Part shown: positions 5,449 to 28,159 of the stretch, one piece after another
Numbering within the stretch: the stretch's first letter is position 1
Layout of the letters: each line of letters opens with the position of its first letter
Assembly (NCBI GenBank): GCA_001799675.1
Contig: MGTX01000022.1
Location: forward strand, 1 to 64,000
Origin: Elusimicrobia bacterium GWA2_66_18
GTDB taxonomy: Bacteria > Elusimicrobiota > Elusimicrobia > UBA1565 > UBA9628
Direction: 5' to 3'
Length of the DNA stretch: 64,000 bases
Made by a program: the position numbers and the translations under genes
The notes under the pieces: model-generated
Database searches by the model: none
What the model was told of the DNA's origin: nothing
Seen by the model: the letters and a program-made list of their open reading frames with translations, nothing else

Positions 5449-5452
5449 CGGC

Positions 5453-6622: not shown

Positions 6623-6732
6623 GGGATCTTCGACTCAAAGGGTAGCGGGAGCGGAGGCCCGCGTCAAGCACTCCGGCATCTTTGTTGCGAAGTTATAAAT
6701 ATAAGCTGAATACCAATTATTGGGGAGGGGTT

Positions 6733-7221: not shown

Positions 7222-7241
7222 GGGCTGCGACTCATCGCTTC

Positions 7242-7271
7242 ACCCGGGACGAACTCGGCCCCGTCCCGGGT
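7242..7271. terminator. Hairpin between convergent genes
   Basis: ACCCGGGACG (7242-7251) and CGTCCCGGGT (7262-7271) are perfect 10-base inverted arms around a 10-base loop. A second alternative stem (CGGCCCC/GGGGCCG) overlaps. No T tract follows, so it may be a weak or bidirectional terminator between hsp20 and the Cys-rich gene. Confidence 0.5.
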
Positions 7272-7278
7272 GGGGCCG

Positions 7279-7470
7279 TCAAGCGCCCCAATGCGGCGTC
7301 GGGGACGGAGGCTTGAACTTCTTGCAGGCGCAGCGGTGGATGACCTCGCCGAGCTTGAGCTTCTCGCCGGTCTTCTCGCAGATGCGCTTTGCCTTAGCCT
7401 TTTCCTTCTCGATTTCGAGTTGACAGTAGCGGCATTCGACGCAGACGCAGGCCTTCTCCGCCATATCCAT
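7279..7470 (-). CDS. Cys-rich 63-residue putative metal-binding protein
   Basis: The product has seven cysteines in 63 residues: Cys8, Cys10, Cys13 and Cys16 form CxCxxCxxC near the N-terminus, Cys31 stands alone, and Cys47 and Cys49 form CAC next to His45. A highly charged Lys/Glu stretch separates the clusters. This spacing suggests bound zinc or iron; no signal peptide is seen, so it is probably cytoplasmic. A G-rich run precedes the ATG, and a second ATG two codons later is possible. It lies eight bases downstream of the transketolase-like gene on the same strand. Family not recognised. Confidence 0.6.
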   Translation of the reverse strand: MDMAEKACVCVECRYCQLEIEKEKAKAKRICEKTGEKLKLGEVIHRCACKKFKPPSPTPHWGA

Positions 7471-7478
7471 GCCCCCGT

Positions 7479-12215: not shown

Positions 12216-14773
12216 AAGAGTACCGCTGGGGACGCTTCGCCGAGCGCGGACTTCTGGGCATGGCTTCGGCGCGCGCGCTCTGCCGCCAAGCGCAGGCTCG
12301 TCGCGCGCTCGCCGCCGAACGCCCTCTCTGGAAGACTCTGGCCGCGCTCGACAAGACGGGGCGTCTGTGGGCGGAGCGCGGGGGTTCCCGCCGCCGCCGC
12401 GCTCGAGCGCTTCTCGTCGCAAGCGGCGCCTTCTCGGCGCCCATGATCGAACGGACTCTCGACATCATCCCGGCCCTGCTCGACCGCCGCGCGCTGGCCG
12501 CGCGACTGCGCGCGGAACTCGGCCGCGCCGACGCGCTCGAGCGCTGGTCCATCGAGCCCGCGGCCGACTTCGCGGTGCGCGCGGCTCCTCTCGGCGCGGT
12601 GCTGACCGTCGCGGCCGGCAACATCTTCCTGGGCTGCATCGACTCGGTGCTGATGGGCCTGCTGACGAACAACGTCGTCCTGTTGAAGACCTCCGCCGCC
12701 GACCGCGAGTTCCCTCTGCTGTTCGCCGAAAGCCTGCGCGCGGCCGATCCCGAGGGCTCGGTCGCAAGAACGCTTGCCGTCGTCTCCTGGAAAAGCGGCG
12801 ACGCGGCGGTTGAAGGCGTCTTCAAGGCGTCCCTGCAGGGCATCGCGGTGTGGGGCGCGGAAGAGGCGTTGCGCGCCTACCGCAAAGACCTCGGCCTCGG
12901 TTGTCGACTGCTCGAATTCGGACCCAAACTCTCGTTTGCGGTCGTCAGCCGCCGCGGGCTCAAGCGTTGGGGAACGCGCGAAGCCGCGCGGCGCGCGGCC
13001 GTCGACATCGCGCGCTGGGATCAGGCCGCCTGCGCCTCGCCGCAAGCCCTGTTCATCCAAGGCCCCGAGCGGCCTTTTCTTGCCGCGCTGGCCTCCGAAC
13101 TTCAAAAAATATCCCGGCTCCTGCCCAAGGGTCCGATCCGTCCGGAGGAGGCCGTCGTCTCGCTGGAAGCGCGCCATCGCGCGCTGGCCGCCGAACTGCT
13201 CGGTCAAGGGGAGATCCTGGCCTCACCGCGCGGCCAGGATTGGACCGTCGCCTTCCGCAAGCGGCCGGGGCTGCGGACATCGCCGTTGGGCCGCTTCATC
13301 CAGATCAGCCCCTACCGCGACCTCGAACAGCTGGCCGCGCTCGTAAGTCCGGCCTCGGCCCATCTCCAAAGCGCCGGCCTCCTCGTCGCTCCCGCTCAAA
13401 CCGGTGATTACGCGCGCACCCTCTCCCTTCTCGGCGTCACGCGCTGCGCCGAGCTCGGCGGCATGCTCAGCGCCGAAGCCGGCGAGCCGCACGACGGGCG
13501 CCGGCCCCTGGCGGAGCTCGTGCGCTGGGTCTCGGCCCCGCAGTCGGTTCTCTCCATGCCGGAGGAGAGCGCCGCCCGCTCCCTGCTGGACCAGGCCCGC
13601 GCCGAGTCGCCCTTCTACCGCCGACGCCTCAAGCGCCTGGGACGCGACGCCGGCCTTTCGCGCGTGCCGCCGCTGACCAAGCGCGACCTCTACGCGAACA
13701 CGCCTCCGAAGTCGAAGGCCCTTCTCACCTGGGAGGGGACCGGACTCGTCTTCGCCAGCGGCGGTTCGACCGGCAAGCCCAAGTTCTCGCTCTTCACGCA
13801 GGACGAGTTCGATGAGACTTGCCGCTGGCTGGCGCTCGGACTGCGCCGCTCGGGACTCAAGGAAGGCGATGTCGTCGCCAACCTGTTCATGGCCGGCAAT
13901 CTCTGGTCCTCGTTCACCGCGATCTCCCGCGCCTTGCGCCAACTCCCCGTGACCGAGCTGCCCATCGGAGGCAACGCCTCGCCCCAAGACGCGCTCGAGG
14001 CTCTGCGCGTCTTCCACGCGACCGCCGTCGTCGGATTGCCTGCGACCCTGCTCGATATCGCTCGCCTGGCGCGTGAGAAGAAAGTCCGCGGCCTTTCCGT
14101 GCGCAAGGTGTTCTACGCGGGCGAGGGGCTGAGCCCCGCCGCGGCTGAGGAACTGCGCCGAAGCCTCGGCGCAAGCCTCATCCGCTCGGCGGGTTACGCG
14201 AGCGTGGACGCGGGGCTCATCGGCTACCAGTGCCGCGACTGCGGCCCGGGCGAACACCATGCGGCCGGCCTCCAGCATATGGAGATCGTGGACGGCGAGA
14301 TCCTGGCCACGAACCTGGTGCGTCGCTGGATGCCGATCATCCGCTACCGCACCGGCGATCTCGGCCGCTGGCTTGCGCCCTGCCGGTGCGGCGACCCCGC
14401 GCCGCGCTTCCTCCTGCGCGGCCGCCGCGACGACCGCCTGAACGTCGGCGGCGCGCACTTCGATCTCGAGGACGCCTCACGCGCGGTCGGCGACGTGAAA
14501 GGTCTGAGCCCCCTGCACCAGGCCGTGATCTCCATTAAAGGAAACCGAGACTGCCTGATGATCCGCGTCGAGCGCCGGGGCCGCGACGCCCGACGCGACG
14601 GCGCGCTGGCCGCGGCGCTCGGCCGCGCGCTGCTCGCGCGCTCGCTCGAGCTGCGCGATTGCGTCGCGCGCGGCTGGCTTGCGCCGCCCGCGGTGGAGGT
14701 CCTCGCGCCCGGCGGCCTGCCGCGCAATCCCCGCACCGGAAAAATCCGCGCCGTCGCCGACCTGCGAAAATAA
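12212..14773 (+). CDS. LuxC acyl-CoA/acyl-protein reductase fused to a PaaK-like AMP-ligase
   Basis: The 853-residue protein is a two-domain fusion. Residues about 1-450 resemble LuxC, which reduces an acyl thioester to an aldehyde with NADPH; WDQAACASPQ places the catalytic Cys at about 274, and AAGNIFLG is a nucleotide-binding region. Residues about 455-853 resemble PaaK/AMP-dependent ligases: FASGGSTGKPK (515-524), YRTGDLG and the C-terminal RDDRLNVGGAHFD. LuxC and LuxE-type proteins are normally separate, and a discrete LuxE homologue is already encoded upstream, so this protein brings a second adenylating domain. The gene is translationally coupled to it. Confidence 0.85.
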   Translation: MKEYRWGRFAERGLLGMASARALCRQAQARRALAAERPLWKTLAALDKTGRLWAERGGSRRRRARALLVASGAFSAPMIERTLDIIPALLDRRALAARLRAELGRADALERWSIEPAADFAVRAAPLGAVLTVAAGNIFLGCIDSVLMGLLTNNVVLLKTSAADREFPLLFAESLRAADPEGSVARTLAVVSWKSGDAAVEGVFKASLQGIAVWGAEEALRAYRKDLGLGCRLLEFGPKLSFAVVSRRGLKRWGTREAARRAAVDIARWDQAACASPQALFIQGPERPFLAALASELQKISRLLPKGPIRPEEAVVSLEARHRALAAELLGQGEILASPRGQDWTVAFRKRPGLRTSPLGRFIQISPYRDLEQLAALVSPASAHLQSAGLLVAPAQTGDYARTLSLLGVTRCAELGGMLSAEAGEPHDGRRPLAELVRWVSAPQSVLSMPEESAARSLLDQARAESPFYRRRLKRLGRDAGLSRVPPLTKRDLYANTPPKSKALLTWEGTGLVFASGGSTGKPKFSLFTQDEFDETCRWLALGLRRSGLKEGDVVANLFMAGNLWSSFTAISRALRQLPVTELPIGGNASPQDALEALRVFHATAVVGLPATLLDIARLAREKKVRGLSVRKVFYAGEGLSPAAAEELRRSLGASLIRSAGYASVDAGLIGYQCRDCGPGEHHAAGLQHMEIVDGEILATNLVRRWMPIIRYRTGDLGRWLAPCRCGDPAPRFLLRGRRDDRLNVGGAHFDLEDASRAVGDVKGLSPLHQAVISIKGNRDCLMIRVERRGRDARRDGALAAALGRALLARSLELRDCVARGWLAPPAVEVLAPGGLPRNPRTGKIRAVADLRK

Positions 14774-14870: not shown

Positions 14871-15935
14871 TCAGGCGGCGACGGGCGCGAGCGGCACGCC
14901 GGCGGCGGGAAGGGGATGGGTCATGCGCCCCCAGCAGTCCGCGCTCTCGCAGGCGACGATGCCGGCCGCGCGGGCGAGGTCCTCTTCGCGCTTGGCCAGG
15001 CTCTTCTCCACGACGCCCTTGAGGTCGTCGATGTCGTACAGATAGATGCCCTCGGCCTGGGTGACCTCGGGGGCCACGTTGCGGGGCATCGCGATGTCGA
15101 TGATGAAGAGTGACCGGCCGCCTCGGCGCCGCGACAGGGCAAGAGCGGCCTCCCCGTCAAGCAGGCAGCGGTCGGCTCCCGTGGAGAAAACCGCGATATC
15201 CGCCTGGTCCAGCCGGTCGAAACCTTCCGCGAGCGTGATGGGCTTTCCGCCGAGCTCGGCGGCCAGGGCCTGAGCCTTGTCGAGGCTGCGGTTGCTGACG
15301 AAGAGCTCGCCCGCGCCCTTGGAGCGCAGATGGCGCACGGAGGAGGAGGCCATGGTCCCCGCTCCGAAGACCACGATGACGCGTTCCTTGAGCTCGTTGA
15401 AGATGCTGCGGGCCAGGACCGCCGCCGCCCCGCCGATCGAAGCGATGCCGCCGACGATGCGGGTCTCGTTGCGGACCTTTTTGCCTACCATGAGGGCGCG
15501 CTGAAAGGCCAGATGGCCGTAACGGGTGGCCGTCTTCTCGGCGCAGGCGCCCTGGTAGGCGGCCTTGCATTGCCCCAGAATCTCGGTCTCGCCGACCACC
15601 CAGGAGTCCAAACCGGCGGCGACGCGGAAAAGATGGCTGACGGCCTCGGGACCGCGGCGGACATAAAGGGACGAGGAGATGTCGCGTCCGGCGCGGCGAA
15701 CCAGCCATTCGACCACGGCCTGCTCGCCGTCCTTGTCGGGCTGGCAATAGACCTCGAAGCGGCTGCAGGTGGAGATGACGACGACGCCTTCCTGACCGGT
15801 GGCCTCCCTGACGAGGGTGTTGATGCGTCCCGCCTCATGCGGCTTAGGGGAAATGGCCTCACGGATCTCGACGGGGGCCGTCGCGTGATTGAGTCCGACC
15901 ACCAGCCATTCTGGGCTCGTCATGCCTAGGCGCAT
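14871..15935 (-). CDS. hemA: Glutamyl-tRNA reductase
   Basis: HemA reduces glutamyl-tRNA to glutamate-1-semialdehyde, the first committed step of C5 tetrapyrrole synthesis. The product has 354 residues from the first ATG (a second ATG lies four codons later). Landmarks are GLNHATAPVEIRE, the catalytic Cys57 in ISTCSRFEVY, VVGETEILGQ, and the NADPH-binding VVFGAGTMASS. It is somewhat shorter than the usual 410 or more residues, with an abbreviated C-terminal dimerisation region. It lies downstream of a tetraheme cytochrome on the same strand, a fitting position for supplying heme to the adjacent cytochrome locus. Confidence 0.95.
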   Translation of the reverse strand: MRLGMTSPEWLVVGLNHATAPVEIREAISPKPHEAGRINTLVREATGQEGVVVISTCSRFEVYCQPDKDGEQAVVEWLVRRAGRDISSSLYVRRGPEAVSHLFRVAAGLDSWVVGETEILGQCKAAYQGACAEKTATRYGHLAFQRALMVGKKVRNETRIVGGIASIGGAAAVLARSIFNELKERVIVVFGAGTMASSSVRHLRSKGAGELFVSNRSLDKAQALAAELGGKPITLAEGFDRLDQADIAVFSTGADRCLLDGEAALALSRRRGGRSLFIIDIAMPRNVAPEVTQAEGIYLYDIDDLKGVVEKSLAKREEDLARAAGIVACESADCWGRMTHPLPAAGVPLAPVAA

Positions 15936-16019
15936 AGCAACAAAACTACCATCCCGCCAAACGACAACGAACGATTATACGACGACTTCAGGAATATCGC
16001 CTTCACTTATGCGTTTATG

Positions 16020-16051: not shown

Positions 16052-16663
16052 TCAGCGCCGGTGGCAGTCCATGCAGGCCTCGTCGCGCACGTTGGACGCG
16101 GAAACCGCGTTGAGATCATGGGTGACGTGGCAGGAAGGGCAACCGACCTTCCCCTCCTCCAGAATGATCTTGGGGTTGAGGGCCGGATCGTTGTAGTCGT
16201 CCGGGCTGCGATGGAAGGCGGCGAGATAGTCCACGCCCACTGGGTGACCGGCGCCAAAATCGATGGCCTGGAATTGCCGACGCGAGCCCGCGGCAAGCGA
16301 CGAGTGAGACTTGAGCGCGGGAGCGATGCTGCCGTCATGGCAGGACAGGCAGAGACCGGTCTTGGCCCCTCCGACCCGCAGAGACTCTCGCCCAAAGGCC
16401 GAGGAGTCCAAGCGCCCTTCTTTCATCCACAAGGGGCGCTGGATCTTGGTTTGGTGGGAGAAATGGCAGAACACGCAACTGCTTGCCCCTTTCCCAAGAG
16501 AGGCATGGCCCGCGCTCAGCATCGAACCATGATCGCTCATGGAATCGCGAAGGTCCTTGAAATCGTTCTCGGGCCACGGCGCTCGCAAGAGCAGCGCTCC
16601 AAGAATCGATAGTATAACGAGTAAAAAAGACGATGCAAGGCGTCGGGGCCACGGGGTCTTCAT
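16052..16663 (-). CDS. Membrane-anchored or exported tetraheme c-type cytochrome
   Basis: The 203-residue product has a basic N-terminus and one hydrophobic segment (about 10-27), either an uncleaved anchor or a signal peptide. Four CxxCH heme-c sites follow: CVFCH, CLSCH, CPSCH and CMDCH, plus extra His residues for axial ligation. CLSCHDGS and the spacing resemble the paired-CxxCH cytochromes encoded at 21761 and 22508. A good sigma-70-type promoter lies upstream (16687-16715), unlike the sigma-54-type promoter of the divergent kinase gene. It would carry electrons in the periplasm. hemA lies downstream. Confidence 0.88.
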   Translation of the reverse strand: MKTPWPRRLASSFLLVILSILGALLLRAPWPENDFKDLRDSMSDHGSMLSAGHASLGKGASSCVFCHFSHQTKIQRPLWMKEGRLDSSAFGRESLRVGGAKTGLCLSCHDGSIAPALKSHSSLAAGSRRQFQAIDFGAGHPVGVDYLAAFHRSPDDYNDPALNPKIILEEGKVGCPSCHVTHDLNAVSASNVRDEACMDCHRR

Positions 16664-16686
16664 AAAAAAAGCAGGCTTGAGAAAGG

Positions 16687-16715
16687 AGTGTAGACCCGCC
16701 GCCTGGATTTGTCAA
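16687..16715 (-). promoter_or_regulatory. Sigma-70-type promoter for the tetraheme cytochrome
   Basis: On the minus strand TTGACA (16710-16715) is followed after 17 bases by TACACT (16687-16692). Predicted transcription start is about 16680, 17 bases before the ATG. Confidence 0.7.
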
Positions 16716-16729
16716 CAGTGTCAGTTATT

Positions 16730-16745
16730 TGGCTTAAACGTTGCA
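16730..16745 (+). promoter_or_regulatory. Sigma-54-type promoter for the sensor-kinase operon
   Basis: TGGC at 16730-16733 and TTGCA at 16741-16745 place GG and GC ten bases apart, as in the -24/-12 consensus TGGCAC-N5-TTGCA. The predicted start is near 16756, six bases before the ATG at 16762. Confidence 0.6.
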
Positions 16746-16761
16746 AAGGGCAAGTAACCCG

Positions 16762-18243
16762 ATGAGACGAACGCGCCCCGATCGATGGCTCCGGCGTCTT
16801 CGCATCGCTTGGCGCAGCGCCCCACTGGCCCGGCAGACGTTCATCGCCTTCTATTCCTCGACGGTGGTGATCACGGCCGCCACCTTTATCCTCTACATCC
16901 AAGACACGCGGCGCAGCGTTCTCGACATGGAACGCGTCACGATGACCAGCATGTTCCCCATCGTCGAGAGGGTCATCACGGACGCCATGCTCCGCGAATC
17001 GCGCGACCCCATCAAGCATCTTTTCGCCCTCCACAACCACCGCGGCGAAGAGCGCATGCTGCTCCTCACCCACGACAAGCTGGCCGTCAACACCGATGAC
17101 TTGGCCAACGGCGTCAAGCCGCGGCGCGAGGAGCCCCGGGCCTTCGACCCGGACAAGCACATCATCATGGATTTCCCAATCCGGAACTGGAAAGCCTGCT
17201 CACGCTGCCACGCGCCCCATGAAGACCCCATCGGCTACATCCGACTCGTCTCGCCCAAGCGTGACCGTCAGGCCGTCGCCGAAGCCAATCTTAAGGGCCG
17301 CCTCATCATCCTTTTCTGTTCGTTTGCCGCCGTGGGCCTGTGGACCCTTCTCATCGTGCGGCGCGTCATCGATGAGCCCATGGGCCGCATCATCGAGGCG
17401 ATGGGGCGAGTCGCCCACGGCGAGTTCCACACCCGCGTCGACAACCTCCCCTCCGGGGAGCTGCGCTCCATCGCGCACGGCTTCAATTCCATGGTCCGCC
17501 GTCTGGAAAAGGACCGCAAGGAGATCGTGGACCTGCACCGCCGACAGGTAGCGCACATGGAACGCCTGGCGGCTCTGGGCGAACTTTCCGCGCATCTTGC
17601 CCACGAGGTTCGCAACCCCATCACCGGGATCAGCTCCGCCATGCAGATCATGCAGGCCGAGGCCCCGGAGGGCAGCCCGCGCCGCGAGATCCTGGGCAAA
17701 GTCCTGGGCCAGCTCAACCGCATGGATCAGACCATGGGCAGCTTCCTGCGGTTTGCCCGCATGCCCGAGGCCGTGGTTCGGCCCTTCCACCTGCACGAAC
17801 CCATCGGCCGGGTCCTGGACCTCCTTGAGAGCCGCCTGCGCTCCCAAAAAGTCCGTCTCGAGCGCTCCATCCCCAAGGACCTGCCGGGTTTGCGCGGCGA
17901 CCCGGGCCAGATCGAGCAGGTCTTCCTCAATCTCTGCCTCAACGCCGTCCACGCCATGCCGGCGGGCGGAACCCTGGCGGTCGCCGCGCGCGCCGAGGCC
18001 GCCGGAACGGTCTTGATCGAGGTGAGCGACACCGGCCGAGGCATCCCCAGCGCGGACCTCGAGCATGTCTTCCGCCCTTTTTTCACGACGCGCGAGAACG
18101 GCAGCGGCCTGGGATTGCCGCTGTCGCGGCAGATCGTCATGGCGCATGACGGCACGATCTGGATCGATAGCGTCCCCGATCGAGGGACCAGCGTCTTCGT
18201 GCGGCTGCCCGCGGCGGAAAGCCCGGAATCGGCGGAGGTCTAG
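16762..18243 (+). CDS. Membrane sensor histidine kinase with a periplasmic heme-c (CxxCH) motif
   Basis: Layout of this 493-residue kinase: TM1 about 27-46, periplasmic domain 47-179, TM2 180-200, HAMP about 201-250, HisKA with phosphorylated His281 in HLAHEVRNP, and an HATPase domain with NLCLNAVHAMP, DTGRGIP and GSGLGLPLS. The periplasmic domain contains KACSRCHAP (Cys146-His150), a covalent heme-c attachment motif, so it probably senses redox state, oxygen or a gas ligand. The ATG at 16762 is preferred because an upstream TTG (16741) lies inside the sigma-54-type promoter. The response regulator gene follows after one base. Confidence 0.93.
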   Translation: MRRTRPDRWLRRLRIAWRSAPLARQTFIAFYSSTVVITAATFILYIQDTRRSVLDMERVTMTSMFPIVERVITDAMLRESRDPIKHLFALHNHRGEERMLLLTHDKLAVNTDDLANGVKPRREEPRAFDPDKHIIMDFPIRNWKACSRCHAPHEDPIGYIRLVSPKRDRQAVAEANLKGRLIILFCSFAAVGLWTLLIVRRVIDEPMGRIIEAMGRVAHGEFHTRVDNLPSGELRSIAHGFNSMVRRLEKDRKEIVDLHRRQVAHMERLAALGELSAHLAHEVRNPITGISSAMQIMQAEAPEGSPRREILGKVLGQLNRMDQTMGSFLRFARMPEAVVRPFHLHEPIGRVLDLLESRLRSQKVRLERSIPKDLPGLRGDPGQIEQVFLNLCLNAVHAMPAGGTLAVAARAEAAGTVLIEVSDTGRGIPSADLEHVFRPFFTTRENGSGLGLPLSRQIVMAHDGTIWIDSVPDRGTSVFVRLPAAESPESAEV

Positions 18244-18244
18244 A

Positions 18245-20536
18245 ATGTCGGCGAAGATATTGATCGTGGACGATGAAGAGCTCATCCGCTGGTCGCTCTC
18301 CCAGGACCTCGCCAACTCGGGCTACAAGACCGTGGCGGCCGCCGATCTCGAGCAGGCCGAGAAGGCTCTGGAGACCGAGAACCCGGACGTCGTTCTGACC
18401 GATCTCCGCCTGGGAACCGAGAGCGGCCTCGACGTGCTTAAGCTCGCCCGCCGCGGCAACCCCGACTTGCCCGTCATCATCATGACCGCCTTCGCCGACC
18501 TCGAGAGCGCCGTGTCCGCCCTGCGCGAGGGCGCGGCCGACTACATCTCCAAGCCCCTGCAGCTCGCCGGCCTCAAGATCACGCTCAAGCGGGTGCTGGA
18601 GACCGCCCAGCTCAAGCGGCGCCTGGACCGCGCCCACCAGAAGGGCCGGGATAAGTACAGCTTCGAGACCATCGTGGCCGAGAGCCCCTCCATGAAGGAA
18701 TCTCTGGCCATGGCCCGCAAGATCGCCGCCACGCCCTTCGGCACCGTCCTCATCCTGGGCGAGAGCGGCTGCGGCAAGGACCGCTTCGCCCGAGCCATCC
18801 ACTACGGCAGCGTGCGCGCCAGCGAGCCCTTCATGGAGATCTCCTGCACGGCCATCCCCGAGAACCTCTTAGAGAGCGAGCTCTTCGGCTACGAGAAGGG
18901 CTCTTTCACGGGCGCCGCGGGCCAGAAGAAAGGACTCTTCGAGATCGCCGACGGAGGCACGGTCTTCCTCAACGAGATCGGCCACATGCCGCTGAGCCTG
19001 CAGGGGAAGGTCCTGCGCGCGCTGGAGGACAAGACCTTCAAGCGCGTCGGCGGCCGCGACGACATCACCGTGGACGTGCGCGTCATCGCCGCCACCAACG
19101 AGGACCTGCCGAAGGCCGTGGCCGAGGGCCGCTTCCGGCAGGACCTCTATTACCGCGTCAACGTATTGACCATCTCGCTTCGGCCATTGCGCCAGCGCAA
19201 GGAGGACATTCTTCCTCTCGTCGACCGCCTCGTCGAGAAGCTCTGCGTGGATCTGCGTAAACCAAAACCAGTCCTCCCCCCCGAGACATTGGCCGCCTTC
19301 CAGTCCTACCCATGGCCGGGCAACGTCCGCGAGCTGCGCAATGTGCTGGAAAGAATGATGATCCTCGACGAGACGCAATTCCGGCCCGTCTCCCCCGCGC
19401 ACATCGCGCAGGCGAGAAATGACTCCTTCACTCTGCCGACCGACGGCGTCCGCCTGGACGACGTGGAGAAGAATCTCGTCATGCAGGCCCTTAAACGCAG
19501 CAGCGGCAATCAGCAGAAGGCCGCTCAATGCCTCGGCCTGTCCCGCGACGCCCTGCGGCGGCGCATGGAGAAATTCGGACTCAAGGAGGCGCTGGGGGCA
19601 TTAGCGCTCCTCGCTTGGCTGGCCGGCGGCGCCTCCGCCGGCTTCTTCGGCGAGTCGAAGAAATCCGACGATCCCTTCAAGACGGCCAACGCGCAGAAGG
19701 CGAAAGAGTACTCCGAGAAGACGGCCGCGCACGCCCCGGTCAAGGCGGGCGAGTGCTCCAAGTGCCACGGCGATCCCAAGGACGCGGCCAAGCTGACGAT
19801 GGAGGCCAAGCCCCTCTGCCTCTCTTGCCATGCTAACCGGGCCGAGGACTTCAAAAAGCCCGCGGTCCACTCCGCCTTCAAGGACATGGACTGCGGCGCC
19901 TGCCACCAGCCCCACTCCTCGAACCAGCCGCATCTGCTCAACGCGCCGGTCGGCGAGCTGTGCGCGGGATGCCACGATATCAAGTCGGATCCCATCAAGG
20001 GGGCGCACCACGGCGTCACCGTCTTCGAGGGCGACTGCACGGCCTGCCATAGCCCCCACGCCTCGAAAAACGCCAAGCTCATCATCGAAGGCAAGGAGCA
20101 TGTCCCCTTCGACTCGCGCTCCTGCGAGATGTGCCACGCCAAGACCGGCGCGGACGGCAAGGCGGCGCTCAAGAAGATACCGGAGGAAACCTGCTTCGCC
20201 TGCCACTCCAACTTCCGCAAGCTTGACAAGAACCCGGTCGTTCACCCTCCCTTCGCCTCCGGCGACTGCACGATTTGCCATAACCCCCACGTCAGCGCGC
20301 GAGGCTCCCTCATCCGAAAACCCTTGGCCGACATCTGCTTCGGCTGTCATGACGAGACTCTTAAGAACAACCATCCCGTCGCGCGCCACAAGACCGCCAA
20401 TGAGAACAAGGCGGACCCCCGCCGCGAGGGCAAGCCCTTCAACTGCGCGTCCTGCCACGAGCCGCACGCGGGTAAGAACCCCAAGCTCGTGCGCGCCGAC
20501 ATCTCGATCCTCTGCGAGGAGTGCCACAGCAAATGA
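18245..20536 (+). CDS. Sigma-54 response regulator continuous with an 11-heme cytochrome c (fusion)
   Basis: One 763-residue frame from an ATG with a good Shine-Dalgarno (GGAGG). Residues 1-120 are a receiver (Asp53, Thr81, Lys103). Residues about 140-380 are an AAA+ sigma-54 activator: Walker A GESGCGKD (172-179), GSFTGA loop (219-224), arginine-finger region FRQDLYYR. Walker B reads FLNE, with Asn243 where Asp is usual. A Fis-type HTH ends near 440. Without a stop, EALGALALLAWLAGGASA (448-465) forms a hydrophobic segment with a signal-peptidase-like site. Then come 11 CxxCH motifs of paired-CxxCH type. Either this is a membrane-tethered regulator with a periplasmic cytochrome, or the cytochrome is also made from Met441 (19565), which would give a classic signal peptide. 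Confidence 0.85.
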   Translation: MSAKILIVDDEELIRWSLSQDLANSGYKTVAAADLEQAEKALETENPDVVLTDLRLGTESGLDVLKLARRGNPDLPVIIMTAFADLESAVSALREGAADYISKPLQLAGLKITLKRVLETAQLKRRLDRAHQKGRDKYSFETIVAESPSMKESLAMARKIAATPFGTVLILGESGCGKDRFARAIHYGSVRASEPFMEISCTAIPENLLESELFGYEKGSFTGAAGQKKGLFEIADGGTVFLNEIGHMPLSLQGKVLRALEDKTFKRVGGRDDITVDVRVIAATNEDLPKAVAEGRFRQDLYYRVNVLTISLRPLRQRKEDILPLVDRLVEKLCVDLRKPKPVLPPETLAAFQSYPWPGNVRELRNVLERMMILDETQFRPVSPAHIAQARNDSFTLPTDGVRLDDVEKNLVMQALKRSSGNQQKAAQCLGLSRDALRRRMEKFGLKEALGALALLAWLAGGASAGFFGESKKSDDPFKTANAQKAKEYSEKTAAHAPVKAGECSKCHGDPKDAAKLTMEAKPLCLSCHANRAEDFKKPAVHSAFKDMDCGACHQPHSSNQPHLLNAPVGELCAGCHDIKSDPIKGAHHGVTVFEGDCTACHSPHASKNAKLIIEGKEHVPFDSRSCEMCHAKTGADGKAALKKIPEETCFACHSNFRKLDKNPVVHPPFASGDCTICHNPHVSARGSLIRKPLADICFGCHDETLKNNHPVARHKTANENKADPRREGKPFNCASCHEPHAGKNPKLVRADISILCEECHSK
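19565..20536 (+). CDS. Possible separate translation product: exported 11-heme cytochrome from an internal in-frame ATG
   Basis: Starting at Met441 of the regulator frame gives about 323 residues with a Sec-like signal peptide: Lys residues at 3 and 7, hydrophobic core ALGALALLAWLA, and cleavage after GGASA. The heme motifs are CSKCH, CLSCH, CGACH, CAGCH, CTACH, CEMCH, CFACH, CTICH, CFGCH, CASCH and CEECH. There is no Shine-Dalgarno before this ATG. A perfect AAGGAGG lies 16 bases after it (19583-19589) with no start codon at proper spacing. Listed as an alternative to the fusion, not an additional certain gene. Confidence 0.4.
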   Translation: MEKFGLKEALGALALLAWLAGGASAGFFGESKKSDDPFKTANAQKAKEYSEKTAAHAPVKAGECSKCHGDPKDAAKLTMEAKPLCLSCHANRAEDFKKPAVHSAFKDMDCGACHQPHSSNQPHLLNAPVGELCAGCHDIKSDPIKGAHHGVTVFEGDCTACHSPHASKNAKLIIEGKEHVPFDSRSCEMCHAKTGADGKAALKKIPEETCFACHSNFRKLDKNPVVHPPFASGDCTICHNPHVSARGSLIRKPLADICFGCHDETLKNNHPVARHKTANENKADPRREGKPFNCASCHEPHAGKNPKLVRADISILCEECHSK

Positions 20537-21606
20537 AAACAAGGGCCCTGACTCTCATTTTGATCCTAGGAACCGTCCTAGCCGCTTCCGCGGCCGAGGC
20601 CCCGGTGCAAGCTCCCGAGGGCTCGACCATCACGGTCTCGGGAGAACTCGTCTACCCTTCCCCGCCGGACAAGCCGCGCATCCGTTTCGTGAAGTCCCTC
20701 CATACCATGAGGGACCTCAGCGGCAAGAAAAGAGGCCTGTTCGCCAAGCTTCTCGCCTTGCTGGCGGGCGGCGAAGCCGATCTTCCTCTCGTCGCCAGAC
20801 CCTACGGCGTGTGGAAACAAGGCGACAAGCTTTACGTCTCGGACACGACCGCTCCGGCGCTCACCATCCTGGACCTCAAGAAAGCGACCGTGACCGACAT
20901 CGGCAAGAAAGGCGAGGGGCAACTGTCATCACCGGTCGGCGTAACGGTCGACGCGGACGGCGCCATCTACGTGACCGACACGGGGGACCACTCGGTCAAG
21001 GCCTATTCGAAAGAGGGAAAGATCCGCTGGCAAAAAGTCTCCCTGGGGGAGGCGGGAGGCAAGCTCAACCGCCCGGGCGGCATCTCCCTGACCCCAACCG
21101 GCGAACTATTGGTCCTCGACACGGGCAATAAACGGGTCGTCCTCCTCTCCAAAGACGGCGCTTTCATCAAAGAGATGTGCCGAAACATGAAGGATCCCTT
21201 CGCCCTGCCGGTCCCCGCCAACGTTTGGGTCGAGAAGAACGGAGACTTCATCATCTCCGACCCGCTTTCCGCCCGGGTCCATATCTTCAACTCGACGGGG
21301 GGCTACGTCTCGGGCTTCGGGGAACAGGGCGACTCCGCCGGCTATCTCGCCCGGCCGCGCGGCGCGGCCACCGATTCGGACGGCCACATCTACGTCGTCG
21401 ACGCCGTCTTCAGCCGCGTCCAGATATTCAATCGGCAAGGGGAGCTCTTCTTGGACTTCGCCAGCCCCGGCCAGGGACCCGGGGAACTCTCGTTGCCCGC
21501 CGGGATATTCATCGATTCCGACGACATGATCTACATCGTGGACTCCAAGAACCAGCGCATACAGGTCTATCAATACCTCAAGTACCTCGAAGAAAAGAGC
21601 CCCTGA
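20533..21606 (+). CDS. Exported NHL-repeat beta-propeller protein
   Basis: The 357-residue product begins with a Sec signal peptide (ending near AASAAEA) and contains repeated NHL blades such as GVTVDADGAIYVTDTGDHSVKAY and GAATDSDGHIYVVDAVFSRVQIF, enough for a six-bladed propeller. NHL propellers are usually binding scaffolds, and such proteins often accompany multiheme cytochromes in electron-export clusters. The start overlaps the cytochrome stop by four bases (ATGA), so it is translationally coupled. A paralogue lies at 23622-24641. Confidence 0.9.
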   Translation: MKTRALTLILILGTVLAASAAEAPVQAPEGSTITVSGELVYPSPPDKPRIRFVKSLHTMRDLSGKKRGLFAKLLALLAGGEADLPLVARPYGVWKQGDKLYVSDTTAPALTILDLKKATVTDIGKKGEGQLSSPVGVTVDADGAIYVTDTGDHSVKAYSKEGKIRWQKVSLGEAGGKLNRPGGISLTPTGELLVLDTGNKRVVLLSKDGAFIKEMCRNMKDPFALPVPANVWVEKNGDFIISDPLSARVHIFNSTGGYVSGFGEQGDSAGYLARPRGAATDSDGHIYVVDAVFSRVQIFNRQGELFLDFASPGQGPGELSLPAGIFIDSDDMIYIVDSKNQRIQVYQYLKYLEEKSP

Positions 21607-21760: not shown

Positions 21761-22432
21761 ATGAAAGTGTCGATAACAGCAGTCGGCCTGATAGCCGCCT
21801 TAGGGCTATTCGGCCAAACTGCCCGCGCGGCGGATCATAAGCTGATCGTCGGTTCAGCCCATGACTTCACGGCGACGGGCAAGGCGGGGGCGGGCGGCTA
21901 TGTCGGTGAGAACGGAGTCGCCTATCTCTACAACTACGGCAAGTGCTCGACCTGCCACGCCTCGCATAAACCCGCGCGGAATAAGTACCTGTGGAAGCGC
22001 ACGCTCGGCGCGGGCAGCAGTTGGACGGTGTGGGACGGCGCGGCCGGGAAGGTCCTCGACGGCGTCAACGACGGCGAGTACCTCAGCGAAACCGAGTTCG
22101 CCCAGACCGGCACCGCGATGTGCATGTCCTGCCATGACGGTGTGACCGCGATCGGCGGCACGACCATGAAGCTGTCCTTCCGCGGCACCTGGGGTCGGAA
22201 CCTGTCGGACATCCACCCGGTCGCTCATAAGGTCCCCTTCGGTTCCGAAGGCTGGCAGCCCGACCTGACTACGGGAAACTCCGCGGCGTTCGCAAACTCG
22301 AACGTCGTGGTAGACGTGATCGGCGGCTCTTCCTACGTCGGCTGCACGAGCTGCCATTCCATGCACAGCAGCGAGAACTCCTCGAAGATCCTTCGGGGCG
22401 GCGATCGCTGCCTGGCCTGCCACAATAGATAA
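21761..22432 (+). CDS. Periplasmic tetraheme c-type cytochrome, copy 1
   Basis: The 223-residue product has a clear signal peptide (cleavage near TARAAD) and four heme sites: CSTCH, CMSCH, CTSCH and CLACH. The sequence GSAHDFTATG at the mature N-terminus and HPV, SMHSS-type His residues suggest bis-His ligation. AGGAGGAG sits seven bases before the ATG. It is paralogous to the next gene along nearly its whole length and more distantly related to the 16052 cytochrome. Proposed role: periplasmic electron carrier feeding the beta-barrel/multiheme conduit encoded downstream. Its own promoter is proposed at 21691-21723. Confidence 0.92.
   Translation: MKVSITAVGLIAALGLFGQTARAADHKLIVGSAHDFTATGKAGAGGYVGENGVAYLYNYGKCSTCHASHKPARNKYLWKRTLGAGSSWTVWDGAAGKVLDGVNDGEYLSETEFAQTGTAMCMSCHDGVTAIGGTTMKLSFRGTWGRNLSDIHPVAHKVPFGSEGWQPDLTTGNSAAFANSNVVVDVIGGSSYVGCTSCHSMHSSENSSKILRGGDRCLACHNR
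22031..22077 (+). repeat. 47-bp identical repeat shared by the tandem cytochrome genes, copy 1
   Basis: These bases are identical to 22781-22827 in the paralogue, 750 bases away, including silent sites. This indicates recent duplication or gene conversion and makes a substrate for deletion by recombination. Confidence 0.75.
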
Positions 22433-22438
22433 TCGCAA

Positions 22439-22478
22439 CCCATTAAAGACCCCCGGTTTCCCGGGGGTCTTTAATGGG
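22439..22478. terminator. Perfect 18-bp hairpin between the two tetraheme genes
   Basis: CCCATTAAAGACCCCCGG and its exact complement enclose TTTC. The GC core followed by TTTAAT on plus, and symmetrical on minus, fits a bidirectional intrinsic terminator or an mRNA-stabilising element that separates expression of the two cytochrome genes. Confidence 0.75.
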
Positions 22479-22507
22479 AACCGGCCGAAGTAAAGGAAAA
22501 CGAAGTA

Positions 22508-23182
22508 TTGAACTCCTCCGCGAAAAAAGCGATTTTATCGTTGGTCTTCGCGCTCGCCGGACAGCTTGCCCAATCCGCCGGGATCGGCTACAAGCTGATC
22601 GCTGGCTCCGCTCATGACTTCTCGGCGACGGGAGCCGGAGGCGCGGCGGGCTATGAGGGCGAGAACGGGGTCACCTATCTCACCGCCAACAAATGCACGA
22701 CCTGCCATGCCGCGCACAAACCCGCCAAAACCGCCTTCCTCTGGAAGCGCACGCTCGGCGCCGGCCCCGGCTGGACGGTCTGGGACGGCGCGGCCGGGAA
22801 GGTCCTCGACGGCGTCAACGACGGCGAATATCTGAGCGTCGCCGAGTTCGCGCAGACCGGCAGCGCGATGTGCCTCTCCTGCCACGACGGCGTGACCGCC
22901 ATCGGCGGAACGACCATGAGGCTGGCTTTCCGGGGAGCGTGGGGACGCAACCTGCCGGATATGCATCCGGTCGCCAAGCGGGTTCCCTTCGGCAGCGACG
23001 GCTGGCAACCCGACCTGACCGCGGGCAATTCCTCGGCTTTCGGCAATTCCAACGTCGTCGTCGATACGGTCGGCAATTCTTCGTACGTCGGCTGCACCAG
23101 CTGCCATTCCATGCACAGCAGTCCGAGCGCGGCGACCTATCTTCGCAAAGGAGAAAGCTGCCTCGTCTGTCACAACAGGTAA
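22508..23182 (+). CDS. Periplasmic tetraheme c-type cytochrome, copy 2
   Basis: The start is TTG at 22508, with AAGG about ten bases upstream; no suitable ATG exists. The 224-residue product has a signal peptide (cleavage near LAQSAG) and four heme sites: CTTCH, CLSCH, CTSCH and CLVCH. It is a clear paralogue of the gene at 21761, with long identical blocks (GKVLDGVNDGEYLS, SYVGCTSCHSMHSS). No promoter was found in the 75-base spacer, so expression may depend on read-through of the hairpin at 22439-22478. Same proposed periplasmic electron-carrier role. Confidence 0.9.
   Translation: MNSSAKKAILSLVFALAGQLAQSAGIGYKLIAGSAHDFSATGAGGAAGYEGENGVTYLTANKCTTCHAAHKPAKTAFLWKRTLGAGPGWTVWDGAAGKVLDGVNDGEYLSVAEFAQTGSAMCLSCHDGVTAIGGTTMRLAFRGAWGRNLPDMHPVAKRVPFGSDGWQPDLTAGNSSAFGNSNVVVDTVGNSSYVGCTSCHSMHSSPSAATYLRKGESCLVCHNR
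22781..22827 (+). repeat. 47-bp identical repeat shared by the tandem cytochrome genes, copy 2
   Basis: Identical to 22031-22077. Confidence 0.75.
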
Positions 23183-23241
23183 GCCGCATTTTTTTTGAAT
23201 TCATTTTTCCGTTTCGAGGTGTGCCGGTTCAAGTTGAAAAT

Positions 23242-23625
23242 ATGATCATGAATTCTTCTGAAGCCGATCTAATGGCGAAACTCCAGACCTATCGCTGGAA
23301 AAAGGGCCTGCGCTGCCCCCGCTGCGGCCAGGCGCGCTGCTCGGTCCACGCGCGCGGCCGCGACGGGCGGCGCAAGCTTCGCTGCGGCGGCTGCGGGAGG
23401 ACCTTCAACGACTTGACCGGCACGCCGTTGGCCCGCACGCACCTGCCCCTGACGCTCTGGGCGAAGGCCGCCCGCCTCATGGCCGCCGGCCGCCCGACCT
23501 GCTCGGCTCTGTCCGTCAAGCTCAGAGTGAAGCTTGCCACGGCCTGGCGAGTGCGAAAAATTTTGACCGAGGCATTGAAAGACGCGGACCTCCGTCAGGC
23601 CCTCGTCGGTGAGGACATCCCATGA
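23242..23625 (+). CDS. Zinc-ribbon/HTH protein derived from an IS1595-type transposase N-terminus
   Basis: The 127-residue product (ATG at 23242 or 23248) has a zinc ribbon made of CPRCG and CGGCGRTF. It is followed by the TGTPLARTHLPLTLWAKAARLM stretch typical of IS1595-family transposases, and by an HTH-like segment ending AWRVRKIL. The DDE catalytic domain is absent and no inverted repeats were noticed. The stop overlaps the start of the NHL gene by four bases, so it is integrated into the operon. It looks like a domesticated DNA-binding protein, perhaps a local regulator. The 59-base spacer before it carries a T8 run and the palindrome TTCAAGTTGAA. Confidence 0.75.
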   Translation: MIMNSSEADLMAKLQTYRWKKGLRCPRCGQARCSVHARGRDGRRKLRCGGCGRTFNDLTGTPLARTHLPLTLWAKAARLMAAGRPTCSALSVKLRVKLATAWRVRKILTEALKDADLRQALVGEDIP

Positions 23626-24641: not shown

Positions 24642-26500
24642 AAAACAGCCTATCCATCCTGTTTATTCTCCTAACGGCGGCGCCAGAGACCCGGGCTCTC
24701 ACCATCCGGAATTCCAAACACGACCTCTCGGCCCACAGCCAGACCACGGGGCCCAAAGCGGTCGCCGAGCAGGATACCTGTCTGTTCTGCCACGCCGCGC
24801 ACAAGCCGGCGATAAACAGCCCGCTCTGGAACAGGGCGGACTCCCCCGTCCAGTTCACCTTCTACTCCTCGAACTACCTCAACAACTACCTGGGCCAGAC
24901 CGCGCCCACGATGTCGGACCTCAACGCCTCGAAGACGAAGCTCTGCCTGTCCTGCCACGACGGAGTGACCGCGCTCGGCTCCGTTTTCAACATCGCCCCC
25001 AACATCGTGCAGATGACCGGCTCGATGAGCGCGGCCGCCATCCTGGGCGCCGACCTTTCCAACGACCACCCGGTGCTCTACGACGTCAAGCCCGGCGCGG
25101 GCCCCCCCACGCAGCCTGGAACCGACCCCGAGATACAGCTGCCCGCCGCGACCGACAAGGTGAAGGTCTATGGGACTACGAACCGCGTGGAGTGCACTTC
25201 CTGCCACGACCCTCACGACAATCAATTTGGAGATTTCCTGGTGAAGTCGAATGCCAACTCGGCGCTGTGCACGACCTGCCACCAAAAAACGAACTTCGCC
25301 TCCAGCGCCCACGCGACCTCGAACGCGGCCTACACCCCGTCCGGCGGCGCGCCGACCACCGTGGCGGAGTACTCCTGCCGCAACTGCCACAGGGCCCACG
25401 GAGCCTCCTCCGCCCAGGCCTACATCCTGCGCGGCTCCGAGGAGGACACCTGCTACAACTGCCACGGCTCCCCCGCCCTGACCGGCGCCAAGGATATCAA
25501 GACCCTATTGGCGAAGGCCTCCAAGCATCCAACGGAGACCGTCGCAGGCGTCCACAAGAACCCCGAGCTCGACGCGACAAACCTGGGCATGAGCAAGCGC
25601 CACGCCGAATGCTGGGACTGCCACAACCCCCATAAGGCCAAGACCGGCACGCACGCCAGCCCTGGAAACAATATAGGCAACGTCCTCCTCGGCGCCTGGG
25701 GCGTGGAGCCGACCTACGGCACCGCCAGCGCCTGGCAGGCCGCGACCTCCTTCGTTCGCCAGATATTCAACGACACGACGAACTACAAGGAGTACCAGCT
25801 CTGCTTCAAGTGCCACACCTATTACGCCTTCGGCGCCACGCCGCCCGCGGGCTACACCGACGTGTCCGTCGAGTACAACCCGTACAACCGCTCGGCCCAC
25901 CCCGTGCGCAGCACCGCCAACGCGCAGGCCGGCAGCACGGCGCCGAAAGCGCTGGCCGCGTCCCAGATGTCTTCTCCCTGGAACGCAAGCGCGAACATGG
26001 GCAATCAGAACATGACCTGCTCGGACTGCCACGCCTCCGACGTGACGAGCGACCCCAAGGGCGTGCACGGCTCGGCTTCCCAATATCTCCTCAAGGGCCC
26101 GCGCCGCTACTGGCCCAAGAACGCGGCGGGAACCCTCTGGACCCTGGCCGACGTCAAGAACAACGCGAATTCCTGGTCCACGAACCTCTTCTGCGTCAAC
26201 TGCCACCCGCTCTACGTCAACGGAGCCTTTACCAACAACGTCCATGAAAGAGACGATCACAGGAAGACGGGCGTCGTCTGCATCACCTGTCATGTCGTCG
26301 TCCCGCACGGATCCAAGCGCTCGCGCCTGATCGGCTACAAATCCGATCCGACGCCGTACAACTACGGGGGCGCGAGGACCTACGACAAGCTCGTCATCGA
26401 GGGCTTCCGGAAAGCCTTGAGCCGGACCGGCTACGACAAGGACAACTGCAATTCGAAGGCGACGGGCTGCCACACCGGCTCGGGAACCTTTGAGCCCTAG
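24638..26500 (+). CDS. Exported multiheme c-type cytochrome (11 CxxCH plus one atypical site)
   Basis: The 620-residue product has a signal peptide (MKNSLSILFILLTAAP...) and eleven CxxCH motifs: CLFCH, CLSCH, CTSCH, CTTCH, CRNCH, CYNCH, CWDCH, CFKCH, CSDCH, CVNCH and CITCH. Near the C-terminus CNSKATGCH is a CX6CH arrangement that could hold a twelfth heme or form a disulfide. The first part (CHAAHKP, CLSCHDGVTALG) resembles the tetraheme cytochromes nearby. It precedes a beta-barrel gene by six bases, the arrangement expected of a porin-cytochrome conduit across the outer membrane. Confidence 0.92.
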   Translation: MKNSLSILFILLTAAPETRALTIRNSKHDLSAHSQTTGPKAVAEQDTCLFCHAAHKPAINSPLWNRADSPVQFTFYSSNYLNNYLGQTAPTMSDLNASKTKLCLSCHDGVTALGSVFNIAPNIVQMTGSMSAAAILGADLSNDHPVLYDVKPGAGPPTQPGTDPEIQLPAATDKVKVYGTTNRVECTSCHDPHDNQFGDFLVKSNANSALCTTCHQKTNFASSAHATSNAAYTPSGGAPTTVAEYSCRNCHRAHGASSAQAYILRGSEEDTCYNCHGSPALTGAKDIKTLLAKASKHPTETVAGVHKNPELDATNLGMSKRHAECWDCHNPHKAKTGTHASPGNNIGNVLLGAWGVEPTYGTASAWQAATSFVRQIFNDTTNYKEYQLCFKCHTYYAFGATPPAGYTDVSVEYNPYNRSAHPVRSTANAQAGSTAPKALAASQMSSPWNASANMGNQNMTCSDCHASDVTSDPKGVHGSASQYLLKGPRRYWPKNAAGTLWTLADVKNNANSWSTNLFCVNCHPLYVNGAFTNNVHERDDHRKTGVVCITCHVVVPHGSKRSRLIGYKSDPTPYNYGGARTYDKLVIEGFRKALSRTGYDKDNCNSKATGCHTGSGTFEP

Positions 26501-26506
26501 GAATCC

Positions 26507-28159
26507 ATGCCGAGCGCGCACCGACTCCGGGCCGCCGCGCTGGGACTGCTGCTGACGCTGGCGGCGGGCCCGGCGCGCGCCTTGGAGCATACCGGTACGC
26601 TGCGCTGGCGCTTCGACGACATCACGGTCAAGGACCCCTCCGGGAGCCGGCGGCGTTCCTCCTGGTTCCAGGGCTACAATCTGGACCTGGACGGGACCCT
26701 CCTCCATCGCGCCGTGGGCGCCTTCAAGACCGGGGGCGCCTATTCACAGGGCGCCGACATCAATCAGGCCGTCAATGTCAGCGCTCCCGAGCAGCGCGTC
26801 ATCGACTACAAGGCCTCGGCCCAGATCTTCAGCCCTTTCGTCCGGCGCTACGTCCGCTTCGACCCGAACTATTCCGTCCAACACCTGAGACTCGCCGGCA
26901 GCGACTACGCCGCGACGCACACCCTTACGAACACGGGCTGGGGTTTTAGTTCCGGCCTGTCGCTGCCGAAGCTCCCCGCGCTCAACATCTCCCGACAATA
27001 CAACATGGTCCAGGACCCTAATGGGGCGAACCCGACCGATCAGCGCCTCAACCTGCAGCGCGAGGACCTCGCTTACGGTCTCGGCGGCCTGCTCCTCAGG
27101 CTCGGCCATGAGCGGCGCAAGACGCAGGACAGGAACAACCCTCTTCCCGTTCCCGAAGACGACACCCAGAGCGGCTCCTTGGAATACAACTATTACGGCC
27201 TCAAACGGCTCGGCCTGCGGTCTGTCTCGATGCGCGCGGATTACTTGCGCCAGGCCAGCGGCGGGACCCTGGGCCAAAAGTCTTTGTCGAGCCTTTTCAG
27301 CTTGTCGAGCCGGGAATTCCAAACGGGCGCCTGGACCCACTCGGCGTCTTATTCAAACGACACGCAGCGTGATCTACTCGCGGAATCATCGATCCTATCG
27401 CACAATGCCCAATTCAACAGCAACCGCCCCGTCGAGCGAGGGAGCTTCACTCACGGCCTCGCCGGGAACCTCACGACCGGGCGCGGGGGGACGAGCCGCG
27501 GCGTGAGCTCGGCTCCCGGTCTCAACTTAAACTTCTCCAATGGACGCGTCACGACGAATACGAACGCGGTCGCGGGATGGAGCCGCAGCGGAGCCGGCGC
27601 CTCCTTTTTCAACGACTCCCTGGAGGGCCGACTGGCCTTAAATCCCCATCCCTCTCTCAACCTGTTCACGGAAGCCCGCACCAGCGGCTCGGAGCCTCTC
27701 GATATCGGCGGCATAGGAGGACAGCGCACCAACCGCTACGGCCTCGGCGGGACCCGAAGGCTGGTGAACGGGGAAACGTCCCTTCGCTACGACCGCACCG
27801 AGCAGCGCGACCTCTCCCGAGGGAGCAGTTCGGTCAACGACCAGGTCAATATCCTCGGCTCAGCTTCCCTGATCGAGCGCCTCAACACCACGGCGGGCTT
27901 CAACTTCAGCGCCACCCGAACCGATAAGGGCGGCCGGTACGATTCCAAGAACTTCAGGCTCGGAGCTGACTATTCTTTCCTCTGGGGCCTCCAGGTCTCC
28001 GTGGACGCCAGCTTCGCGGAACGCGACCAATATACCTCCAACTTCAACGCCTCCTACTCACTGGGCAAGACCCAACTGGCCTTGAAGTTCCAGCGCCGGG
28101 AGATGCCGACGCATTCTTCTTTCTCCTATCTGAGCATCTCCCTAACCCGATTGCTATGA
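26507..28159 (+). CDS. Outer-membrane beta-barrel protein, probable cytochrome conduit porin
   Basis: The 550-residue product has a signal peptide ending at PARALEH. The rest alternates polar and hydrophobic residues with many amphipathic strands, such as GSLEYNYYGLKRLGL, TETSLRYDRTEQ-type and LQVSVDASFAERDQY, and terminates in aromatic/hydrophobic strands (YLSISLTRLL). This matches a large beta-barrel of about 20 or more strands. No family is recognised by motif. Its position right after an 11-heme cytochrome suggests the sheath of an electron conduit, like the MtrB or OmbB role, though I cannot show homology. Confidence 0.78.
   Translation: MPSAHRLRAAALGLLLTLAAGPARALEHTGTLRWRFDDITVKDPSGSRRRSSWFQGYNLDLDGTLLHRAVGAFKTGGAYSQGADINQAVNVSAPEQRVIDYKASAQIFSPFVRRYVRFDPNYSVQHLRLAGSDYAATHTLTNTGWGFSSGLSLPKLPALNISRQYNMVQDPNGANPTDQRLNLQREDLAYGLGGLLLRLGHERRKTQDRNNPLPVPEDDTQSGSLEYNYYGLKRLGLRSVSMRADYLRQASGGTLGQKSLSSLFSLSSREFQTGAWTHSASYSNDTQRDLLAESSILSHNAQFNSNRPVERGSFTHGLAGNLTTGRGGTSRGVSSAPGLNLNFSNGRVTTNTNAVAGWSRSGAGASFFNDSLEGRLALNPHPSLNLFTEARTSGSEPLDIGGIGGQRTNRYGLGGTRRLVNGETSLRYDRTEQRDLSRGSSSVNDQVNILGSASLIERLNTTAGFNFSATRTDKGGRYDSKNFRLGADYSFLWGLQVSVDASFAERDQYTSNFNASYSLGKTQLALKFQRREMPTHSSFSYLSISLTRLL

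Follow-up and report, generated by a model that had tools for sequence, protein, structure and literature searches.

Response regulators of the NtrC/NtrX/AtoC type (group I sigma-54 enhancer-binding proteins) consist of a receiver, an AAA+ sigma-54 domain with a GAFTGA-type loop and a Fis-type helix-turn-helix (HTH), and sigma-54 activators have been studied as soluble cytoplasmic machines. Regulators of the ToxR/CadC type are membrane-integrated one-component activators, with an OmpR-type winged HTH at the N-terminus, a stable single transmembrane helix and a periplasmic sensor. Other described systems that come close to the one presented here are the MtrA/DmsE-type periplasmic multiheme cytochromes, with paired CxxCH repeats, and sensor kinases with a periplasmic c-type heme motif. 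Here we describe a locus of Elusimicrobia bacterium GWA2_66_18 (genome of 2.79 Mb in 34 contigs, 95% complete) within a stretch of 64,000 nucleotides (contig MGTX01000022.1, positions 1 to 64,000, hereafter the window), in which a single open reading frame (ORF) contains the three domains of an NtrC-type regulator, in the same order, followed by a signal-peptide-like segment and a multiheme cytochrome c. The ORF and its parts are:

18245..20536, + strand: fused ORF of 763 amino acids, NtrC-type response regulator, signal/anchor segment and 11-heme cytochrome c
18257..18577, + strand: receiver domain, residues 5-111 (Pfam Response_reg, E 1.8e-25; D53, T81 and K103 present)
18671..19378, + strand: sigma-54 AAA+ domain and lid, residues 143-378 (GSFTGA loop; R298 and R304 of the R-finger motif)
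18965..18988, + strand: Walker B variant FLNEIGHM, Asn at residue 243 (Asp in relatives), conserved in the clade
19454..19576, + strand: Fis-type HTH, HTH_8 at residues 404-444 (Pfam E 3.7e-13)
19565..19567, + strand: internal ATG (Met441), not conserved and without a ribosome site
19583..19589, + strand: AAGGAGG, two codons (Lys-Glu) and one further base, not conserved as a ribosome site
19583..19639, + strand: putative internal signal peptide or membrane segment, residues 447-465, predicted cleavage after ASA (residue 465)
19640..20533, + strand: 11-heme cytochrome, Paired_CXXCH_1 (Pfam; closest solved relative by sequence, 6r2q chain A)

The translation is free of stops over 18245-20533 (763 codons). 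Pfam placed Sigma54_activat at residues 143-310 (E 4.6e-66), AAA_lid_14 at 316-378 and Paired_CXXCH_1 in six stretches (E 1.7e-53). All 11 CxxCH motifs lie after the join segment, KEALGALALLAWLAGGASA (19 residues), which is followed by G466 and gives ASA/GFFG at 465/466, the slash marking the predicted cut. An earlier reading, made from the sequence alone (the sequence-only reading), had claimed a continuous frame from regulator through signal-peptide-like segment to multiheme domain, with 11 CxxCH motifs behind a hydrophobic segment ending in a signal-peptidase-like site; both claims were borne out, and the frame proved to be conserved. Judged by its sequences, the fused architecture is real, conserved and, within a known protein class, new; none of the literature titles and abstract openings searched, a coverage with most subscription journals outside it, reports a sigma-54 regulator fused to a cytochrome.

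By Pfam, the regulator half has the receiver, AAA+ sigma-54 domain and Fis HTH expected of group I, and the organism has both RpoN (also found in 53 of the 58 genomes searched) and -24/-12 promoter-like sites, the latter identified by sequence. The top NCBIfam model for the regulator was AtoC, at 421.7 bits against a cut-off of 714, and Foldseek on the structure model returned NtrX (5m7o) first, with 1ny5, which we take to be NtrC1, among the next. The protein differs from group I members by its C-terminal signal peptide and cytochrome, and its clade by an Asn for the Walker-B Asp and, in most members, a Ser at the switch position (see below). The cytochrome matched 6r2q chain A in phmmer (E 4.2e-10 over 89 residues, a partial match), presumably MtrA although the table label differs; it departs from the decaheme MtrA/DmsE proteins in its 11 hemes and N-terminal regulator, and the ten-heme MtrA/DmsE model TIGR03508 was not among the best 25 of 120 NCBIfam matches. 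In the full-length AlphaFold model, the predicted local distance difference test (pLDDT) in ten-residue blocks was 63-93 up to residue 380, 36-49 at 381-400, 68-80 over the HTH, 52-77 in the first part of the cytochrome and mostly <60 afterwards. The recognition helix was modelled at 434-443 and, after a two-residue break, a further helix at 446-459.

The cytochrome was detected (E<=1e-50) in 20 of 340 genomes of the phylum, the window's genome counted. Thirteen carry the fusion, namely the window and G003, G017, G008, G009, G007, G004, G230, G036, G021, G038, G044 and G027 (as loci, in the same order, L038, L011, L040, L039, L041, L042, L107, L044, L043, L045, L018 and L046). In G016 (L047/L049) a contig end falls just inside the join segment, and in G035 (L048) regulator and cytochrome are split into separate genes. 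The cytochrome is unfused in G197, G198 and G199, from another family of the class, and G330 and G034 have weaker, unfused relatives of it. Tallied within the order, the 15 genomes with an orthologue gave 13 in-frame joins with zero linker, one contig-cut gene and one split. All 13 joins read RRR(M/L)EK(F/Y), three residues and then the hydrophobic stretch, in frame; contig ends truncate the fused genes of L042, L046 and L018, but not at the join. Identity to the window protein across the other 12 was 62-87% (aligned rows), and the set comprises seven genomes of the window's genus, three of other genera of its family and three of a second family. A homologue search, suggested along with the sequence-only reading, thus found the same join open and in frame in 12 further Elusimicrobiota genomes of two families.

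The ratio of nonsynonymous to synonymous differences (pN/pS, both as uncorrected proportions) among the seven same-genus sequences was lowest for the HTH (0.07), against 0.46 for the segment and 0.31 for the heme part. These values argue strongly that the HTH just before the join is under strong purifying selection in the window's genus; selection is less striking in the second family, since the corresponding values for its three sequences were 0.33, 0.81 and 0.42. No independent fusion, sought as an E<=1e-20 match running from HTH to cytochrome, appeared in 8, 329 and 297 genomes around Nitrospirae-, Deltaproteobacteria- and Acidobacteriota-labelled loci, the Deltaproteobacteria and Acidobacteriota genomes being a sample with only 8-10 candidates scored per genome. 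One candidate, G349, had a match running from the last HTH columns across the cytochrome, and was rejected because its open frame of 376 amino acids is too short to hold the regulator. L155, which comes from another phylum's genome, shows a similar but unfused arrangement at 2210-8413, where one strand has successive matches to a kinase, a sigma-54 regulator, a second receiver and multiheme cytochromes (gene ends unverified).

By inspection, the Sec signal-peptide features of a basic n-region, a hydrophobic h-region and small residues at -3 and -1 are present in all 13 joins (11 AxA and 2 SxA), with 16-18 residues between the last Lys or Arg and the cleavage site (an Arg close to the site in L043 and in L046 is not counted). 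The short n-region at the protein N-terminus that is usual for such peptides is missing, ca. 446 regulator residues preceding the segment. The unfused cytochromes have N-terminal signal-peptide-like sequences ending in ASA/GFF (L048), LQA/GLF (L138) and LQA/GWF (L139), while the more distant unfused L140 sequence ends in SWA/GKK. Because the signal peptides of L048, L138 and L139 stop where the join segment does, the HTH terminus seems to have taken over the role of the n-region, and the shared place of the cut is the main reason why we prefer cleavage over tethering. Families for signal peptidase I, the M50 protease and cytochrome c assembly are present in the window's genome.

The split and unfused relatives bear on the order of events. 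In L048 the regulator ends in RRRVEKYGL and, 539 bases on, the cytochrome has AAAGGAG, an ATG and its own signal peptide; the 539-base stretch between them resembles, by eye, part of a spermidine-synthase-like enzyme and had no Pfam match. In G198 (L140) an unfused regulator with the FLNEIGHM motif, ending in LRYRLEKHGLRYS, sits immediately behind a kinase and is followed by a different cytochrome, which has a start of its own. From this shared motif, the regulator clade appears to be older than the fusion. The cytochrome tree placed L048 among the fused sequences (approximately unbiased test against a fused-only clade, p 0.026, the group having been named after an earlier tree was seen), but neither the regulator tree (p 0.199) nor the concatenated tree (p 0.145) rejected a single fused clade. 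A secondary split in L048 is thus suggested as likely rather than proved. The Arg of the RRR helix variant is present in 15 of 16 clade members, L048 included, and in 14 of 73 other relatives that have a residue at this position. Among the weaker cytochrome relatives, G330 (L141, 6150-8054 of the reverse complement) encodes a protein with 23 CxxCH motifs that the cytochrome matches in two adjoining stretches, perhaps a tandem duplication.

The genes and sites around the fused ORF are:

14871..15935, - strand: hemA (glutamyl-tRNA reductase)
15936..15951, - strand: sigma-54-type site TGGTAGTTTTGTTGCT directly before hemA, conserved in 10/11 orthologues examined
16052..16663, - strand: divergent small multiheme cytochrome, 4 CxxCH
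16730..16745, + strand: sigma-54-type -24/-12 site TGGCTTAAACGTTGCA before the kinase operon, conserved in orthologues
16741..18243, + strand: sensor histidine kinase with one CxxCH before the HAMP domain, start TTG 16741 or ATG 16762
20533..21606, + strand: NHL-repeat protein, its ATG overlapping the stop of the fused ORF (ATGA)
21761..23182, + strand: two small multiheme cytochromes (21761-22432 and 22508-23182)
24674..26500, + strand: large multiheme cytochrome, 11 CxxCH in the open frame, start approximate

The partner kinase, said in the sequence-only reading to carry a heme-c motif, does have a single CxxCH, and this is kept in all 14 genomes with that part read (the window, the L038-L048 range, L011 and L107). 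It resembles in this the known sensor kinases with a periplasmic heme motif, the difference being that the neighbouring regulator is here itself joined to a cytochrome. A strict TGG-N8-TTGC lies before the kinase in 8 of 13 genomes (L011 outside the set) and in 12 of 13 when the first base is left free; the deviations, read by eye, affect the first base in L042, L043, L044 and L045 and the GG in L046. Its -12 element is so close to the ATG at 16762 that the leader predicted from the sequence would be only ca. 6 bases. Upstream of hemA, this strict pattern occurs at -14 to -20 in 10 of the 11 genomes with hemA in the stretch (L046 lacks it; 7 of the 11 share one genus), and 0.9% of random 80-base windows contained it. 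Scanning the window by itself for sigma-54 sites gave no useful signal (15 sites found against 20 expected), and the kinase and hemA sites are credible only because they are conserved in relatives. The conserved site before hemA suggests that sigma-54 controls heme synthesis next to the cytochrome cluster, which we infer to be an envelope electron-transfer system.

Other observations were made around the cluster. On the - strand at 16640-16740, TTGACA-17-TACACT resembles a sigma-70 promoter for the divergent cytochrome, by eye, and similar letters occur in several relatives. An open frame at 22693-23625, inside the cluster, has the zinc-ribbon of an IS1595-type transposase. The ORF at 12212-14773 combines a LuxC acyl-CoA reductase with a region whose AMP-binding match is weak and falls below the cut-off, and 26507-28159 had no Pfam family and no NCBIfam family among the matches listed.

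We lean towards an explanation of the whole that draws on the single frame, the signal-peptide anatomy, the kinase heme motif and the promoter-like sites, all of them conserved. One gene would give one polypeptide, a phosphorylation-controlled sigma-54 activator whose HTH runs directly into an internal Sec-type signal peptide and then a periplasmic 11-heme cytochrome; that the joined ORF is translated as one chain is very probable. The last basic HTH helix (RRRMEKFGLK) would serve as the positive n-region, so that the regulator stays in the cytoplasm and the cytochrome crosses the membrane. Given one chain, signal peptidase I probably cuts at the conserved A/S-x-A site, which would release a free periplasmic cytochrome and leave the regulator with the hydrophobic peptide as a C-terminal membrane tail, and a site-2-type protease might later remove this tail. 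As to the signal and the targets, we infer that the heme-c kinase would read the periplasmic redox state and phosphorylate the receiver, and that the regulator would switch on its own operon and hemA from their sigma-54 promoters, so that the supply of heme keeps pace with cytochrome synthesis.

Several points weigh against this explanation. One-to-one production of a regulator and a cytochrome is unusual. With no linker to separate the recognition helix from the segment, DNA binding would be crowded were the tail to remain in the membrane. In L043 and L046 an Arg lies no more than four residues from the cleavage site. The AlphaFold pLDDT is lowest at the join (<50 at 451-474), and the cytochrome modelled alone reached a mean of only 55.5. 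Of the fused genomes, 7 of 13 come from a single genus, and the sites were already known when the promoter pattern was defined. Finally, the Walker-B and switch-residue changes suggest weakened ATP hydrolysis, and the regulator may not work as a conventional activator.

A rather doubtful alternative is that the fusion stays uncleaved, as a single-pass membrane activator (N-in, C-out) in which the 11-heme periplasmic domain would sense redox state or electron flow and control the cytoplasmic activator. The same conserved frame and topology, the retention of the fusion across two families and the strongly conserved HTH all fit this alternative, and the heme motif of the kinase points to periplasmic redox sensing as part of the system. 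The protein would then be like ToxR and CadC in having its DNA-binding part inside and a sensory-looking part outside (for CadC, PMC7888679 and PMC5430869). It differs from them in its DNA-binding fold (the receiver is N-terminal and HTH_8 stands at 404-444, with no N-terminal OmpR-type winged HTH), its AAA+ sigma-54 domain, its partner kinase, the lack of a linker before the segment and the conserved signal-peptidase-like site. A hydrophobic stretch of only 16-18 residues ending in that site, the signal peptides that stop at the same point in unfused relatives, the HTH abutting the segment and the lineage that keeps both parts as separate genes speak against an uncleaved product and leave cleavage as the preferred outcome.

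Quite unlikely, in our assessment, is that the regulator half is a disabled activator that acts mainly as a long leader or as a repressor or anti-activator, the cytochrome being the main product. This idea stems from a comparison of 96 deduplicated regulator sequences with the Walker-B position aligned. The 16 clade members (the fused ones, the split L048 and the unfused L140) all have Asn in place of the Asp of the hhhhDE motif expected of group I (FLNEIGHM), against Asp in 80/80 other relatives; the Glu is kept. At the switch position, 14 of the 16 have Ser, one has Gly and one has Asn, against Asn in 28, Asp in 47, Thr in 3 and Ser in 1 of 79 other relatives. Residues 200 and 243 are here taken to correspond to PspF N64 and D107, as matched by hand to the PspF sequence. 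The PspF Vmax per min fell from 39.5 in the wild type to 0.23 in D107A and 1.50 in N64Q (PMC3419264). Against a disabled activator, PMC4132715 gives <1% hydrolysis for PspF E108Q, with complexes still remodelled. The clade also keeps, where covered, the Walker-A Lys, Walker-B Glu, R-finger residues, receiver D/T/K and the Thr of the GAFTGA-type loop (16/16, the loop of L043 being GAFTDA), and the lowest pN/pS of the genus set is in the HTH. Because the Walker-B change is also found in unfused L140, it is not decay following fusion.

Improbable, too, is a nested gene, with the cytochrome translated from an internal start (Met441, an upstream GTG or ATG in the HTH, or one in the segment) and the fused product minor. 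The sequence-only reading had offered Met441 as such a start and AAGGAGG at 19583-19589 as the relic of a once separate gene. The ATG of Met441 occurs in 8 of the 13 fused genomes; the other five have Leu (CTC in four, CTG in L043), and no Shine-Dalgarno-like string (>=4 bases, 3-12 bases upstream) precedes any of the eight ATGs. AAGGAGG is indeed present, yet it is exact only in the window, L039 and L041 and varies as codons elsewhere. Neither is conserved across the fused set, and we rejected the start as well as the relic. Other candidates give the nested gene some support: in several genomes 4-5-base Shine-Dalgarno-like strings precede some ATG or GTG codons 24-30 codons upstream, L039 has a TTG in the segment 11 bases after AAGGAGG, and L044 and L046 have a GTG there after a 4-base string. 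The upstream candidates, however, are missing in L039 and L046, and the in-segment ones are not shared and would initiate within the hydrophobic core without basic residues. In L040, L045 and L018, no such start codon (ATG, GTG or TTG) occurs anywhere between codon -23, counted from the L of LRRR, and the segment's end. In addition, synonymous change at the join (pS among the seven same-genus sequences 0.39 in the HTH, 0.46 in the segment and 0.31-0.45 elsewhere) is not below the rest and therefore gives no sign of a hidden start signal. An assembly or sequencing artefact joining two genes, for which the one related genome with both parts as separate genes might be cited, can be practically dismissed, because the same open in-frame join is repeated in 12 other genomes from several sampling projects.

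A more tentative extension of the cleaved fusion is an export-gated transcription factor, in which membrane insertion, heme maturation and cleavage of the cytochrome would decide whether and where the regulator acts. If this were true, the transcription of respiration genes would respond to the successful export of their own product, with an ATPase centre altered to suit, and the protein would be, to our knowledge, the first sigma-54 activator covalently joined to a multiheme cytochrome. An export signal right after the DNA-binding helix raises the questions of whether a hexameric activator can work from the membrane, whether an internal signal peptide behind a folded n-region of 446 residues can be processed, and whether the export of an electron carrier can report directly to transcription. 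The clade-wide change of the Walker-B Asp and the switch residue is a natural experiment on the ATPase mechanism. For the uncultured Elusimicrobiota, the promoter-like sites of hemA and the kinase suggest a compact regulon in which heme supply is coupled to multiheme cytochromes, and the conserved fusion may tie the control of respiration genes to the export of a respiratory protein.

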